DNA of 41,373 bases, taken from positions 1-41,373 of IMG/VR virus record IMGVR_UViG_3300035034_000366. One strand, 5' to 3'. The notes under the pieces are model-generated. The model ran no database searches. It had not been told where the DNA came from and saw only the letters and a list, made by a program, of their open reading frames with translations. A program made the translations under genes and the position numbers. The stretch's first letter is position 1; each line of letters begins with the position of its first letter. This DNA is from a virus. Shown piece after piece: positions 1,037 through 5,788 of this stretch.

Positions 1037-1450
1037 CCTGCCGTGGTCGCGCAGAACTGGATCACCCAAGGCAACGCCCTGCGGCTGGATTGGCTGAGCA
1101 TTTGCCCACCCACTGGCACGGGCGTGAAGCTGCGTGGTGATGATTTATTCAACACACCACTCGACCAAGCGCAGATTGATTTCGAGAATGAAGGCGGAGA
1201 GACCTATATTTGCGGGAATCCGCCTTTCAAGGGAACCCGCAAGCAGGATACCCAAGAGAAGGACGACTTGGAGCGGGTGTTTGCCGGAATTACAAGCAAG
1301 TGGAAGAACGTCGACTACGTTGGCGCTTGGCGGATGAAGGCGGCTTTATACAACGATGCCTGCTACGCCCCCTTTTCCTTCGTGGCGACGAATAGCCTCT
1401 GCCAAGGGCAGCAAGTTCCGATCACTTGGGCGCTTATACTCGCGGGGAAA
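1037..1450 (+). pseudogene. Internal fragment of an MmeI/YeeA-like class I SAM-dependent DNA methyltransferase
   Basis: The open frame carries LRLDWLSICPP, then YICGNPPFKGT (the NPPF catalytic motif IV of N6-adenine methyltransferases), then NVDYVGAWRMKA and FVATNSLCQGQQVPI. This order is characteristic of large MmeI-like type II restriction-modification fusions (COG1002). The intact proteins are several times longer. Here the N-terminal SAM-binding part and everything after the motif-IV region are missing. The match ends at about 1440-1450, immediately before the stop codon of the leftward phage gene. A GTG at 1043 could open the frame but has no proper ribosome-binding site. Best read as a truncated piece at a chimeric join. 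Confidence 0.75.
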
Positions 1451-1452
1451 AT

Positions 1453-3822
1453 TTATTCGTAAAGATCGGCGGGAAGTTTGTCAGGTTGCGCGAGAATGAA
1501 CGCACGACCGCCGAACTTGTAATCGCGCAGCAACGCACCGCTCCCGATCTCTTGCAAGTCGCCTGTGTCGATCAATGATTGCACCGCTCGCTTTAGCGCG
1601 TCGGTTGCACCGCGTTTGTCCGCTGTGAATAGCGACATGGACGCGGTCTTTCGCTGTATGTACGCGTAAGGGATAACTTTGTCGTGGTGCATCTTCGGAT
1701 TGGTCTTGTAACCTTTGACGGCATGAATGGGGCGCGTCGTGTAGTCTACCGCGTAGCGCAGAACAGTCCGTTGCTGTTTGTTTTCTTCTGCATTCTTGCC
1801 GATCTCGCCGCGCTGTAGTCGTCCAGTGATGGTCAGAATGTCGGCCAAGACCACATTATAGGCCCATTGCGCGCACTCTAGGTCGATCTCAGGGAAGTAG
1901 GGGTTTTTGCCCACAGCCACCTGTCCGGCCAGCTTTAGGGTCTTGACATGGGCGCGGTTCCAAAGGTCGCGAGTTGCTTCGTCTTCAATACTGTTGATAA
2001 GGTTTGTGGTAAGCTGTTCGACCTTGCGGAGAAAGTCTTTAGCTTCGTCTGTGTAGCCGATGTCGATTGTTTCGCCCTTGGCTTGCATATTTAAACTGTT
2101 GCTGGCGAGGTCAGCTAGGCGGGTTATCAATCCGACGTCTGGTTCGACGTTTAGGTGGTTTTCGTTCAAATCAGGGCGCGGGCCGGTGTACTCGATAAAA
2201 ATGAAGCGCGGTAACAGCCCGTCAAGGATTAGTTTGTCGTCGATAGCGCTGTAGAACGTGCTAGGCGTACTTTCTCCGAGAATTGTCACGGCGGGGCTAT
2301 GAACTAGCGCCGTGTTGTTCTCTTTCTGCGCGTAGTTAGTGCCGGACAGATTATCGTGCTTGCCTGACTTGTTGTACAGGTCGAGTAGTACCTTTTTCAG
2401 CATGATCTCGCTGCTACTGGCGCGGGGATTGGCGAGCTGTTGCATCTTCAGACCGAACTCGCCGACCACCGAGACAAAACAACGATGGTTCGGATCCGCG
2501 AGGGTCCTCAGCAATGCCTGTCCAGACGCGAACTCGGACGGACCGACAAAGCAGCTCGCAGCCGGTACGCTGGCACTGTTCGGCATCGCCACAGCCAAGG
2601 TATTGATTAGCTTGGAGATTCCCCGGTTGATCGCTTCTTTCCCGGTGCCGGTCGGAGCCAGCAGCAGAATATACAGATTCAGGCCGGTGCCGCTCACATT
2701 GTAGGGACGGCCACAGATACCGGCCATGAGGCCCATGGCGGCGGCAATGGCGATCTGCTTTACCGGGCGCGGTGACGAGTGAAAAATGTACCGGGTCAGG
2801 TCGCCCATAAGCCCCGGTGCCGGGTCGTAATCGGGGTTCAGCTTCCAGAGTGCTTCCAGTTCAGTCATGGCCTTCGCTTGGCGTTCTTCAGGCGACCCGC
2901 CGCCGCTTATGCCCTTGGGCGCGGGCAGCGACCCGGACGCCTCAGCGTCGGCGATCGCATCCTGTAAGCCCATGATGTCGACAGGCGGTAGCTGCCGGTC
3001 GAAGCTGCGGTGTATGAGCCGCGTCACATAGTCAGGCCGGTGCGCCTTCGGACGCTGGCCGAGTGGCGAGGCGTGGAAGATGCGCGTTATTTGATTGATA
3101 TTCTGTGTATAGAACGCTACTATGTCAATAAATGCGAGGTCCGCTTCCGACTGTGAGGCGTACAGCCCTTGCCAATTCCCGTTTAATAGCTCTTGAAACT
3201 TCGGCCCGTTGGTCGCGGCCAAGGCCCGGTTGATAACCGTCTGGTCGTCTTCGGTCTGCGGCTGGCTGGCGGTCGTGTAATCGGTGCCCCCACCTGCGCT
3301 TATATTCATCATAGACCACAGTTTATTTGCTAGGTCTTGGCGCTCTCCGATCTCGGTCGTGTGTCCGAATACGCAACCAGTCATGGTCATGTAGCGTTCG
3401 GAGTCATAGATTTCGATGTCGCCGCGCTTCTGCCCCTGCGGGATTTGCGCCTTAATGATGACGTGCAGGCCGTTACCGGATGGGCTTTTCTCGCTGTAGC
3501 TGCCGAACTTCGTGTAGATGTCAAGCTGACGTTCAGCGGCTCTAGGGTCGCTAGTCTGGTCTAGGTCGACAAAGGTGTACGGGTCGCGCTTAGTCAGCAC
3601 AAAACCGATACCGGAATAGCCGGAGCCTTCCATCGTTGCTGCCCACACTGCGTTGTCGAAGGTGGTCCAATGGTCCTGATTGGTGACGGACGCCGGGTAG
3701 CCAGTCATCGGATTGTACGGCACCTTTGTCGGCTTCTTGCCGCCCCGGTCTTCGTAGCGCCAGCAAATCCACTGCCGGTACGCCCGCATTTCTGCCGGGA
3801 TATTGTTGTAGTTTACTTCCAC
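1453..3822 (-). CDS. NrS-1-like primase-polymerase fused to a DUF3987-like helicase/ATPase
   Basis: A 789-residue replication protein. Residues 1-160 form an archaeo-eukaryotic primase-type (PrimPol) domain: the acidic pair D86-x-D88 in FVDLDQ, the SxGxGxH motif SEKSPSGNGLHV with H120, and a later IEIYDSERYMTMTG. The opening (QWICWRYEDRGGK, KVPYNP, HWTTFDNA) follows the pattern of the NrS-1 phage polymerase. Residues 210-280 look like a PriCT-style linker (FHASPLGQRPKAHRPDYV). Residues 320-789 carry a P-loop (APTGTGKE, 389-396) in a DUF3987-like ATPase. It probably primes DNA synthesis, and may also extend and unwind. The start is the GTG at 3822, preceded by GGAAGG and overlapping the stop of the upstream small gene by 10 bases. 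Family assignment is firm; helicase activity is inferred. Confidence 0.85.
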   Translation of the reverse strand: MEVNYNNIPAEMRAYRQWICWRYEDRGGKKPTKVPYNPMTGYPASVTNQDHWTTFDNAVWAATMEGSGYSGIGFVLTKRDPYTFVDLDQTSDPRAAERQLDIYTKFGSYSEKSPSGNGLHVIIKAQIPQGQKRGDIEIYDSERYMTMTGCVFGHTTEIGERQDLANKLWSMMNISAGGGTDYTTASQPQTEDDQTVINRALAATNGPKFQELLNGNWQGLYASQSEADLAFIDIVAFYTQNINQITRIFHASPLGQRPKAHRPDYVTRLIHRSFDRQLPPVDIMGLQDAIADAEASGSLPAPKGISGGGSPEERQAKAMTELEALWKLNPDYDPAPGLMGDLTRYIFHSSPRPVKQIAIAAAMGLMAGICGRPYNVSGTGLNLYILLLAPTGTGKEAINRGISKLINTLAVAMPNSASVPAASCFVGPSEFASGQALLRTLADPNHRCFVSVVGEFGLKMQQLANPRASSSEIMLKKVLLDLYNKSGKHDNLSGTNYAQKENNTALVHSPAVTILGESTPSTFYSAIDDKLILDGLLPRFIFIEYTGPRPDLNENHLNVEPDVGLITRLADLASNSLNMQAKGETIDIGYTDEAKDFLRKVEQLTTNLINSIEDEATRDLWNRAHVKTLKLAGQVAVGKNPYFPEIDLECAQWAYNVVLADILTITGRLQRGEIGKNAEENKQQRTVLRYAVDYTTRPIHAVKGYKTNPKMHHDKVIPYAYIQRKTASMSLFTADKRGATDALKRAVQSLIDTGDLQEIGSGALLRDYKFGGRAFILAQPDKLPADLYE

Positions 3823-4092: not shown

Positions 4093-4123
4093 TGTATAAA
4101 AATACTGTTGACCTGTATAAAAA
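4093..4123. repeat. Direct repeats TGTATAAAAA, 21 bp apart
   Basis: TGTATAAAAA occurs at 4093-4102 and again at 4114-4123. The centre-to-centre distance is 21 bp, two turns of B-DNA, so both copies present the same helix face. The second copy fills the spacer of the candidate rightward promoter. This suits an operator for a dimeric regulator, perhaps the adjacent 64-residue protein. Confidence 0.5.
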
Positions 4124-4135
4124 AGGCGTTATGGT
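4108..4135 (+). promoter_or_regulatory. Candidate sigma70 promoter for the rightward DNA-metabolism genes
   Basis: TTGACC at 4108-4113 (5 of 6 to the -35 consensus) and TATGGT at 4130-4135 (4 of 6 to the -10) are separated by 16 bp. Transcription would begin near 4142, about 35 bases before the first gene at 4177, which has AGGGAG in front of its ATG. The intergenic stretch 4008-4176 holds no other open frame. A -10-like TACAAT on the other strand (4030-4035) lacks a good -35. Confidence 0.45.
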
Positions 4136-4176
4136 CGCAGAAATAGACGGACAAAGCGCCACAGGGAGATAAACAG

Positions 4177-4620
4177 ATGAACGACACGGTACAACCAACC
4201 GAAGAAGAACGCGACAAAGCTATCATGCTGTGGAACGCAGTAAAGACGCAGCTAACCACACTAAAAGAGCGCGAAGCGCTTTTACGCAAACAAGTTGTGA
4301 GTATGTGCTTCCAGTCGGCCAAGACAGGCACCAATCGTGTACCGTTGGGGCAGGGCTACGCGCTCAAAGCTGTTATTAAATACAATTATAAAGTGACTAA
4401 AAACGAGGCTGTTACGCCTCCCGACTACTCACATATTCCCGACGTATTGGCTAAACTGCCTGAACACTGCCGCGCAGAGATCATCCGGTGGTCGCCGTCG
4501 CTTAACGAGGCGCTGTATAAGAAGATGACCGCTGACGAGCAAAAGATCGTCAACGAGGTGCTTCTTATCACTGACGGTTCCAGCACGCTGGACCTCGAAC
4601 CGCCGAAACAAAAAGCATAA
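4177..4620 (+). CDS. Conserved phage hypothetical protein (possibly DUF7173-like)
   Basis: A 147-residue acidic, helical protein. The N-terminal third is a likely coiled coil (AIMLWNAVKTQLTTLKEREA, LLRKQVV). A small beta section follows with GTNRVPLGQGYALKAVIKYNY, then a helical C-terminus. The pattern of a helix followed by GT(N)xxxLGxGYxLK recurs in small replication-region proteins of many lytic phages. I recall these as a DUF family but cannot verify it. It is the first gene of the rightward operon, with AGGGAG before its ATG and a promoter about 40 bases upstream, so it is probably made early. Function is unknown. Confidence 0.6.
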   Translation: MNDTVQPTEEERDKAIMLWNAVKTQLTTLKEREALLRKQVVSMCFQSAKTGTNRVPLGQGYALKAVIKYNYKVTKNEAVTPPDYSHIPDVLAKLPEHCRAEIIRWSPSLNEALYKKMTADEQKIVNEVLLITDGSSTLDLEPPKQKA

Positions 4621-4626
4621 GAATAT

Positions 4627-4704
4627 CGCGGGGCTTAAAGGAAGAACACGCCAAACCTCAAATCCTTGGCGTGCCATGCTGGTTCGATTCCGGCCCCCGC
4701 GACC
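4627..4704 (+). ncRNA. tRNA-like element (D-arm-less or degenerate tRNA)
   Basis: The ends pair perfectly: CGCGGGG (4627-4633) with CCCCGCG (4695-4701). A T-arm lies immediately inside: GCTGG-TTCGATT-CCGGC (4678-4694), a 5-bp stem with a canonical TTCGATT loop. The unpaired A at 4702 followed by CC fits a discriminator base plus the first two Cs of an unfinished CCA end. The middle holds an 8-bp hairpin CACGCCAA/TTGGCGTG (4647-4673) with an 11-base loop containing CTCAAAT, which reads like an anticodon loop for Leu (CAA). No D-stem can be formed from 4636-4646, and the central stem-loop is not the usual 5+7. It could be a decayed phage tRNA-Leu, an unusual tRNA, or a tRNA mimic in the mRNA. 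Confidence 0.5.
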
Positions 4705-4730
4705 GCCTAACCAACACAGGAGAGCGAACC

Positions 4731-4901
4731 ATGAACGGTAAGAAAGCAAAACGCTTACGGCGTGCTGCGGAGCAGGATACGATTGGCGCACCGTCAGTCC
4801 GCTACTTGCAGAACAAAAAGTCCAGTCAGACTATCCTGCACCCGGACTGCACCCGTCGCGTCTACAAAGACTACAAACAGGGGAAACGCCATGTCTCTTA
4901 A
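4731..4901 (+). CDS. Small basic conserved phage protein
   Basis: A 56-residue very basic protein (MNGKKAKRLRRAAEQ at the start, RRVYKDYKQGKRHVS at the end). Proteins with a GKxAKRLRRAA opening and an HPDCTRRVYKxxK-like end are common in lytic phage early regions, with no assigned role. The ATG at 4731 is preceded by CAGGAG with good spacing. The frame stays open upstream to 4671, but that would run through the tRNA-like element and lacks a binding site. The stop overlaps the next gene by 11 bases. A nucleic-acid-binding role would suit the charge but is only inference. Confidence 0.6.
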   Translation: MNGKKAKRLRRAAEQDTIGAPSVRYLQNKKSSQTILHPDCTRRVYKDYKQGKRHVS

Positions 4902-5112
4902 CAGGCTAAAGATTATAGGTGACGAGATCCACTACAATGGGGAAGCCGTCGCCACCGTCACCGCAAAGACTAGCTCTAACCGCGACAACTTCGAGAACGC
5001 CCTGATTGCGGTTCACGAACAGGGCTGTGATTCTACTTACAAAGAAGGCTACGCGGCCGGTAAATCTGACGGCTATTCGTCAGGCTACGACGACGGTAAG
5101 GACTCAGCATAG
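4891..5112 (+). CDS. Small hypothetical phage protein with a YxxGYxxG tail
   Basis: A 73-residue acidic protein starting at the ATG at 4891, with AGGGGAAA just upstream inside the previous gene. The N-terminal half looks like a short beta sheet (LKIIGDEIHYNGEAVATVTA). The C-terminal part is a helix followed by the periodic stretch YKEGYAAGKSDGYSSGYDDG, whose regular Tyr/Gly spacing suggests a small helical hairpin or a partner-binding tail. Such YxxGxxxGxxxGYxxG tails are frequent in small phage proteins. Function is unknown. It ends 1 base before the next gene. Confidence 0.6.
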   Translation: MSLNRLKIIGDEIHYNGEAVATVTAKTSSNRDNFENALIAVHEQGCDSTYKEGYAAGKSDGYSSGYDDGKDSA

Positions 5113-5113
5113 T

Positions 5114-5788
5114 ATGGCCCTCACCTTCGCCCCCGCCAAGTCGTTCTCGCAGCAGTTCGGCGTCAAAGCCATGATCTTCGGGCCTCCGGGGACCGGCAAA
5201 ACACCGATCTGCAACACAGCTCCGCGCCCTATTCTTTGCGCGTCGGAACCCGGCCTACTGTCTATGCGCGGCAGCGACGTAATGACTTGCGAAGCCTACA
5301 CTGCGGCGGACATCGCCGAGTTCTATCGCTGGCTTGCGTCCTCGCAGGAAGCCAAGCAGTTTGATACGGTCTGCGTCGATAGCATATCGCAGCAAGCCGA
5401 GATCATTCTACAGGACGAAATGCCCCGCCACAAAGACCCGCGCAAAGCCTACGGCGAGCTGTCTAAAACCATGATGAAGTACTTGGGCGACCTGTACTAC
5501 ACGCGCAACAAGCACACGTATTTAATCTGCAAACAGACCAGCAGACAAGAAAACGGTATCGATAAGCGGATGCCCTATTTTCCGGGTCAAGACCTAACTG
5601 TTAAGGTGCCTCACCTTTTCGACGAAATACTGCACCTCGACACGCACAACGTACCGCAGGTCGGGGCAGTAAAAGCATTCCGCTGCCACGGTGACTACGC
5701 CACCTTGGCGCGGGATAGAAGTGGTCGGTTAGCTGAATTTGAGCAGCCCGACCTAACCGTATTGTTTAACAAAATCACCCAAGGATAG
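5114..5788 (+). CDS. Sak4-like RecA-fold ATPase (AAA_24 family), recombination
   Basis: A 224-residue P-loop ATPase. The Walker A motif GPPGTGKT is at residues 23-30 and the Walker B TVCVD at 85-89. The overall pattern is that of phage AAA_24/Sak4 proteins, which share the RecA core and anneal or pair single strands together with an SSB. It is immediately followed by a DUF669 gene, the usual Sak4 partner, supporting a joint role in recombination-dependent replication. The start chosen is the ATG at 5114, two bases after the preceding stop, where the family-like sequence begins. The frame is open from 5006, but that part overlaps the preceding gene and is not family-like. Confidence 0.8.
   Translation: MALTFAPAKSFSQQFGVKAMIFGPPGTGKTPICNTAPRPILCASEPGLLSMRGSDVMTCEAYTAADIAEFYRWLASSQEAKQFDTVCVDSISQQAEIILQDEMPRHKDPRKAYGELSKTMMKYLGDLYYTRNKHTYLICKQTSRQENGIDKRMPYFPGQDLTVKVPHLFDEILHLDTHNVPQVGAVKAFRCHGDYATLARDRSGRLAEFEQPDLTVLFNKITQG

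Follow-up and report, generated by a model that had tools for sequence, protein, structure and literature searches.

In plant mitochondria, t-elements are tRNA-like structures located beside the 3' ends of transcripts, and those ends are set by tRNA-processing enzymes. In the MALAT1/mascRNA-type tRNA-like 3' processing signals, too, the transcript end is set by tRNA-processing enzymes (PMC4919922). Bacterial RNase P binds and measures the stack of T-stem-loop and acceptor, and RNAs that display this stack can serve as its substrates (PMC4919913); phage RNAs and polycistronic mRNAs are among its known targets (PMC4919922), and M3 RNA, C4 antisense RNA and polycistronic mRNAs are phage or operon RNAs, none of them tRNAs, that it cuts (PMC11143913, PMC4919922). 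Another tRNA-like RNA outside translation is the pseudo-tRNA known as tRNA-Other of Bacillus cereus (PMC3399842).

The window analysed here is the whole of a 41,373-base virus contig from a lytic-type siphophage, and the element under study lies in its early operon. Like the t-elements and the MALAT1/mascRNA-type signals, it is a non-decoding, tRNA-like structure by the 3' end of a transcript; those signals are eukaryotic, whereas the window element belongs to a bacteriophage operon and its processing is only predicted. Cleavage has been shown for M3, C4 and the polycistronic substrates, whereas for the window element it is predicted, from a fuller likeness to tRNA in acceptor, T-stem and T-loop. 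tRNA-Other is chromosomal, expressed and poorly charged in vitro, and carries a Trp anticodon; the window element, in contrast, has no usable anticodon arm and is known from sequence alone. The tRNA-Leu(UAA) genes of two related loci (L103 and L116) occupy the same gene junction with the same 7+5 stack and a similar T-arm, but they have a full cloverleaf, an anticodon and an encoded CCA, and the window element does not. No described case of a comparable element in a phage operon was found in the open-access literature searched.

A sequence-only reading of this DNA had described a perfect 7-bp acceptor stem, a canonical T-arm, ACC after the acceptor, a tRNA-like length (76 nt to the discriminator) and a central hairpin of 8 bp with an 11-base loop carrying CTCAAAT, and each of these was found as described (Table 1). 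The seven acceptor pairs, all Watson-Crick, can be read directly from the sequence, the T-stem has five pairs, U4680-G4692 among them, and the minimum-energy fold consists of exactly the acceptor, central and T helices (-32.7 kcal/mol, z -2.67; 1 of 200 shuffled sequences folded as well). At the 3' end an RCC is retained as ACC, followed by G, and the CCA is thus incomplete; U4626 can pair with A4702 as a potential eighth acceptor pair. The further claim that a D-stem cannot form was slightly too strong: the best placement of a cloverleaf descriptor gave 1 of 3 D-stem pairs and 3 of 5 anticodon-stem pairs, but a 3-bp CUU/AAG hairpin (4634-4644), set directly on the acceptor and out of D-stem register, is isoenergetic with the open form.

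Table 1. Features of the element and its neighbouring genes in the window.
Feature	Position	Strand	Evidence or remark
DUF7173 / phrog_2480 gene, 147 aa, unknown function	4177..4620	+	Pfam PF23791 E 6e-32; phrog_2480 E 1.9e-27
Gap GAATAT, DUF7173 stop to element	4621..4626	+	Sequence; inferred 5' cleavage 4626/4627, or 4625/4626 if U4626-A4702 pairs
Acceptor 5' strand CGCGGGG	4627..4633	+	Sequence, fold
D-region CTTAAAGGAAGAA	4634..4646	+	No regular D-stem; GG retained; marginal 3-bp CUU/AAG alternative
Central hairpin CACGCCAA-ACCTCAAATCC-TTGGCGTG, in place of anticodon arm	4647..4673	+	Sequence, fold
Linker CCAT, variable-region position	4674..4677	+	Sequence
T-arm GCTGG-TTCGATT-CCGGC	4678..4694	+	Sequence, fold, Rfam scan
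Acceptor 3' strand CCCCGCG	4695..4701	+	Sequence, fold
Discriminator A + CC, next base G	4702..4704	+	Sequence
Next gene, 56 aa, phrog_36059	4731..4901	+	Shine-Dalgarno-like AGGAGAG 4718-4724
Sak4-like ssDNA annealing protein, shared-synteny anchor	5114..5788	+	phrog_124 E 1.8e-43

Three parts of a functional tRNA are present: the 7-bp acceptor stem, the 5-bp T-stem and a TTCRA T-loop. Absent are a D-stem of 3-4 bp, a 5-bp anticodon stem with a 7-nt loop, an encoded CCA and a call by a tRNA model: ARAGORN, which had been proposed earlier as a check, called neither a tRNA nor a tmRNA on the element, and the Rfam tRNA model (RF00005) scored 17 bits, below its cut-off of 29. A continuous 12-bp acceptor/T stack with its T-loop, as in an RNase P substrate or a t-element, is present beside the end of a message. 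The suggestion that this is a tmRNA-type configuration is borne out in topology, since the element shares with the tRNA-like domain of tmRNA the 7-bp acceptor, the T-arm, a D-region with no stem and another helix where the anticodon arm would be. It is unlike tmRNA in that pair 3-70 is C-G and not G3-U70, and in its length of 76 nt; neither Rfam nor ARAGORN gave a tmRNA match in the window, and there is no tag reading frame because the 11-nt loop leaves no room for one. The element is a real structured RNA and is neither a decoding tRNA nor a tmRNA. Taken singly, its structure is only modestly surprising, because a strict descriptor (7 of 7 acceptor pairs, 5 of 5 T-stem pairs, TTC[AG]A, 60-110 nt) gave 0.033 matches per shuffled window (2 in 60); the case against chance is that relatives have such structures at the same gene junction.

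That junction belongs to a gene order (primase on the minus strand, then DUF7173, Sak4, SSB, exonuclease, helicase and clamp) common to phages of Rhodobacter, Xanthomonas, Pseudomonas and Escherichia, Titanvirus, Septimatrevirus and Lokivirus included, to which the window shows about 50-59% identity in Sak4 and 25-38% in DUF7173. The window itself encodes a primase, a Sak4 annealing protein, an SSB, a Cas4-like exonuclease, a helicase, a clamp and a DNA polymerase, and further a portal, a major head protein and a terminase. The element is intergenic, because it starts after the DUF7173 stop and ends before the AGGAGAG of the 56-aa gene; the Sak4 gene lies downstream. No DUF7173 was confirmed in genome contigs, and hence there is no sign of a prophage home.

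Related loci were obtained through alignment-based scans, and 177 DUF7173 3' ends, 117 of them distinct, were located in the fetched loci. The strict descriptor was run on 194 partly redundant loci (1.42 Mb in total) and gave 46 matches, all of which are ARAGORN tRNAs except those in the window, L070 (identical to L099), L085 (with its near-copy L086) and L170. Without duplicates, four strict matches lack an ARAGORN call, and three of the four start 6-8 nt past the DUF7173 stop (+6 in the window, +7 in L085, +8 in L070). Two unrelated lineages, the window on one side and L070/L085/L086 on the other, thus carry tRNA-like elements missed by ARAGORN among the 117 distinct ends. True tRNA-Leu(UAA) genes with a full cloverleaf follow DUF7173 at +6 in L103 and at +13 in L116; with these two and L037 included, a tRNA or tRNA-like structure occupies the slot in 6 of the 117. 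The elements of the window and of L070/L085/L086 retain the acceptor/T stack alone, exactly 7+5 bp and always just 3' of the DUF7173 gene. The tRNAs called by ARAGORN in the related loci end in NCCA, save those of L048 and L172; the L070 and L085 elements are without even the RCC, and in the window element a host enzyme may add the CCA.

Three other observations were made in these loci. The remaining strict match (L170, 7921-8022), a different case that lies far from the DUF7173 gene, has a normal D-arm, T-arm, acceptor and CCA, with about 49 nt replacing the 17-nt anticodon arm and no ARAGORN call. In L037 (2984-3093) a long hairpin (outer strands CCTATTTCG/CGAAATAGG, z -4.4) surrounds a T-arm-like GTCGG-TTCGAAT-CCGGC after DUF7173 and is possibly a tRNA-like remnant; it was rejected as a clean additional case, because its minimum-energy fold, a long hairpin, has another centre and the acceptor forms only with a bulge. 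A tRNA-Leu(UAA) is also located just 3' of Sak4 in L008, L014, L015, L044 and L077; as it recurs after both Sak4 and DUF7173, the operon shows a preference for Leu(UAA) in different phages.

Covariance in related phages had been named as a further check, and it was seen between L070 and L085/L086, to which the known stem compensation is confined: for the window copy no close relative was found by a distant blastn search of 4100-5300 against phages, by single-protein scans of IMG/VR with DUF7173 and Sak4, or by a DNA pattern for its acceptor and T-arm, which was absent from viral and genome contigs. L070, L085 and L086 are related phages, the DUF7173 proteins of L070 and L085 being 98-99% identical. 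The DNA of these two is 92.6% identical from DUF7173 up to the element and 80-88% identical downstream, with no possible alignment across the element's middle. Four pairs differ between them (acceptor 2 and 3, T-stem 2 and 3), all compensated; between L086 and L085 one T-stem base has changed and a G-U pair remains. On a 31-nt acceptor/T composite of the window, L085, L086 and L070, all 48 pair cells were standard and 7 of 12 pairs had double changes (equalled by 0 of 500 shuffles; slid controls were 42-58% paired), in rows that are not independent: L070, L085 and L086 are akin, the descriptor used to select the rows requires pairing, and the window was positioned on structural grounds. This count supports the minihelix as a probable recurring constraint, without proving common descent; the L070-L085 comparison, anchored by its aligned flanks, is the cleanest part of the covariation evidence.

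Our best explanation, in which we place about even confidence, is a translation-dead RNA element, tRNA-derived or tRNA-mimicking, in the 3' spacer of DUF7173, serving mRNA processing or stability. The sequence-only reading had left three choices, a decaying tRNA-Leu(CAA), a true tRNA of odd shape, and an mRNA-processing mimic recognised by RNase P; the last is the best supported, because the 7+5 stack has been kept, the same slot is occupied and L070 compensates against L085/L086, while the cleavage itself we infer. The element would be transcribed within the early operon, and its transcript would fold into the 7+5 bp acceptor/T minihelix with its T-loop. Because that minihelix is the part RNase P measures, the predicted site of cleavage by this enzyme lies shortly past the DUF7173 stop, at about 4626/4627. 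The released DUF7173 mRNA would then end in a 3' tail of 6 nt, and the opposite end of the element may be cut by the host enzymes that process tRNA 3' ends. To judge by its letters, the element appears to have what RNase P requires of a substrate, the 3' RCC included, and the pairing of U4626 with A4702, by extending the stem, could shift or weaken cleavage. The likely effect would be to detach the DUF7173 message from the Sak4 portion of the operon or to make it the more stable of the two. As a matter of speculation, the 5' acceptor strand would lie beneath a terminating ribosome, and cleavage might depend on translation.

The element would thereby substitute for a GC-rich hairpin that many relatives carry. 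The short DUF7173-Sak4 spacers of relatives (19 distinct ones) fold with z averaging -2.2, and therefore the slot usually holds a hairpin; that tRNA-like elements stand where other relatives have one suggests that both may serve to form or protect mRNA 3' ends. A role as terminator was rejected, as no T-run follows the element. In a number of loci (L004, L005, L006, L008, L036, L071, L082, L121, L124, L136 and others) the GC-rich hairpin just past the DUF7173 stop has a near-invariant loop, TGCCCACA, on stems that vary but are still paired; RNAalifold returned no structure for these TGCCCACA hairpins, the alignment not holding the stems in register, and individual folds show them. The 7-mer GCCCACA occurs within 70 nt in 28 of the 117 ends and usually forms part of the loop of a GC-rich hairpin, the stem of which varies from phage to phage; it was rejected as a rare signal, being frequent in these genomes, inside genes too.

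The main rival is a decaying phage tRNA gene, for instance for Leu, with no present function and caught before its stems broke. A history of this kind would suit the true tRNA-Leu(UAA) genes that L103 and L116 carry in this slot, the near equality of the window and L103 T-arms, the Leu-like CTCAAAT loop (CAA anticodon) with A73, and the weak alignment of the element's centre with phage Met/Leu tRNAs (z 2.7-2.9). Decay should have damaged the acceptor and T stems too, yet every pair stands; the 8-bp hairpin, which is no part of a tRNA, is perfect, and the similar elements of the second lineage retain their stems by compensation. Judged as a pseudo-tRNA, the element has lost the decoding parts, and the homology of its centre to tRNA is weak (z < 3). 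A tRNA-Leu(CAA) may have been the origin, but mere decay leaves the intact acceptor, T and 8-bp central stems and the recurrence unexplained, and we consider it unlikely.

Less probable again is a non-coding RNA that acts in trans as a decoy or effector, for example by tying up host proteins that bind tRNA or defences aimed at tRNA. The site does behave like a cassette, in that the centres of L070 and L085/L086 differ and an extra RNA of about 130 nt in L085 is absent in L086, and phage tRNAs are reported to counter tRNA-targeting defences (PMC10264068, PMC11555353). Those counter-defences rely on true tRNAs, however, and the anticodon arm is precisely what the window element has lost; we regard this candidate as quite improbable.

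A functional if unusual tRNA without a D-arm, with Leu(CAA) in a 7-nt loop on a frayed stem, could account for U33, CAA, A37 and A73 in tRNA-like places and for the 76 nt to the discriminator. Its anticodon stem, however, would have 3 of 5 pairs, with A-C and C-C mismatches beside the loop, and would compete with the perfect 8-bp hairpin; there is no D-stem and no encoded CCA, which nearly all tRNAs of the related loci have, the Rfam tRNA score is low (above), and the length is that of class I, whereas bacterial Leu tRNAs are class II. The true tRNA of odd shape is accordingly disfavoured, and we hold it to be very improbable. Temperate phages carry tRNA 3' halves that serve as attP, but a remnant of an attachment site from a host tRNA 3' end is scarcely credible here and was rejected, since the 5' acceptor strand is present along with the 3' strand and pairs with it perfectly, no integrase was found among the window proteins scanned (a subset of open frames), and the exact acceptor/T combination occurs in no contig of the genome collection.

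If the preferred reading, a processing element cut by RNase P, is extended to the relatives, Septimatrevirus-related lytic siphophages may share an exchangeable structured-RNA site behind DUF7173, holding a hairpin, a tRNA, a tRNA-like element or a larger multibranch RNA, at which decoding-free minihelices punctuate the replication operon through cleavage by host RNase P. We offer this as a tentative possibility. If true, it would be the phage counterpart of mitochondrial tRNA punctuation and of t-elements; the principle itself has precedents in mitochondria and in the tRNA-like ends of lncRNAs. The purpose of single tRNA genes in small lytic phages is debated, codon supply being set against resistance to tRNA-cutting defences; the occurrence of true tRNAs, decoding-free elements and plain hairpins at one position suggests that some phage tRNAs could serve RNA processing and not translation. 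Such elements may be under-annotated, because ARAGORN misses them.

Two minor observations concern the site and the contig. In L085 a second multibranch RNA (2630-2757; outer stem AGCGGGTT/AACCCGCT, -40 kcal/mol, z -2.4) follows directly after the tRNA-like element, and its absence from the near relative L086 is an apparent gain or loss at the site. In the window, near the contig end, an open frame at 1043-1462 (+) matches only the inner positions 108-218 of the 259 of the Pfam MmeI DNA-methyltransferase model, and the gene appears to be split or truncated.
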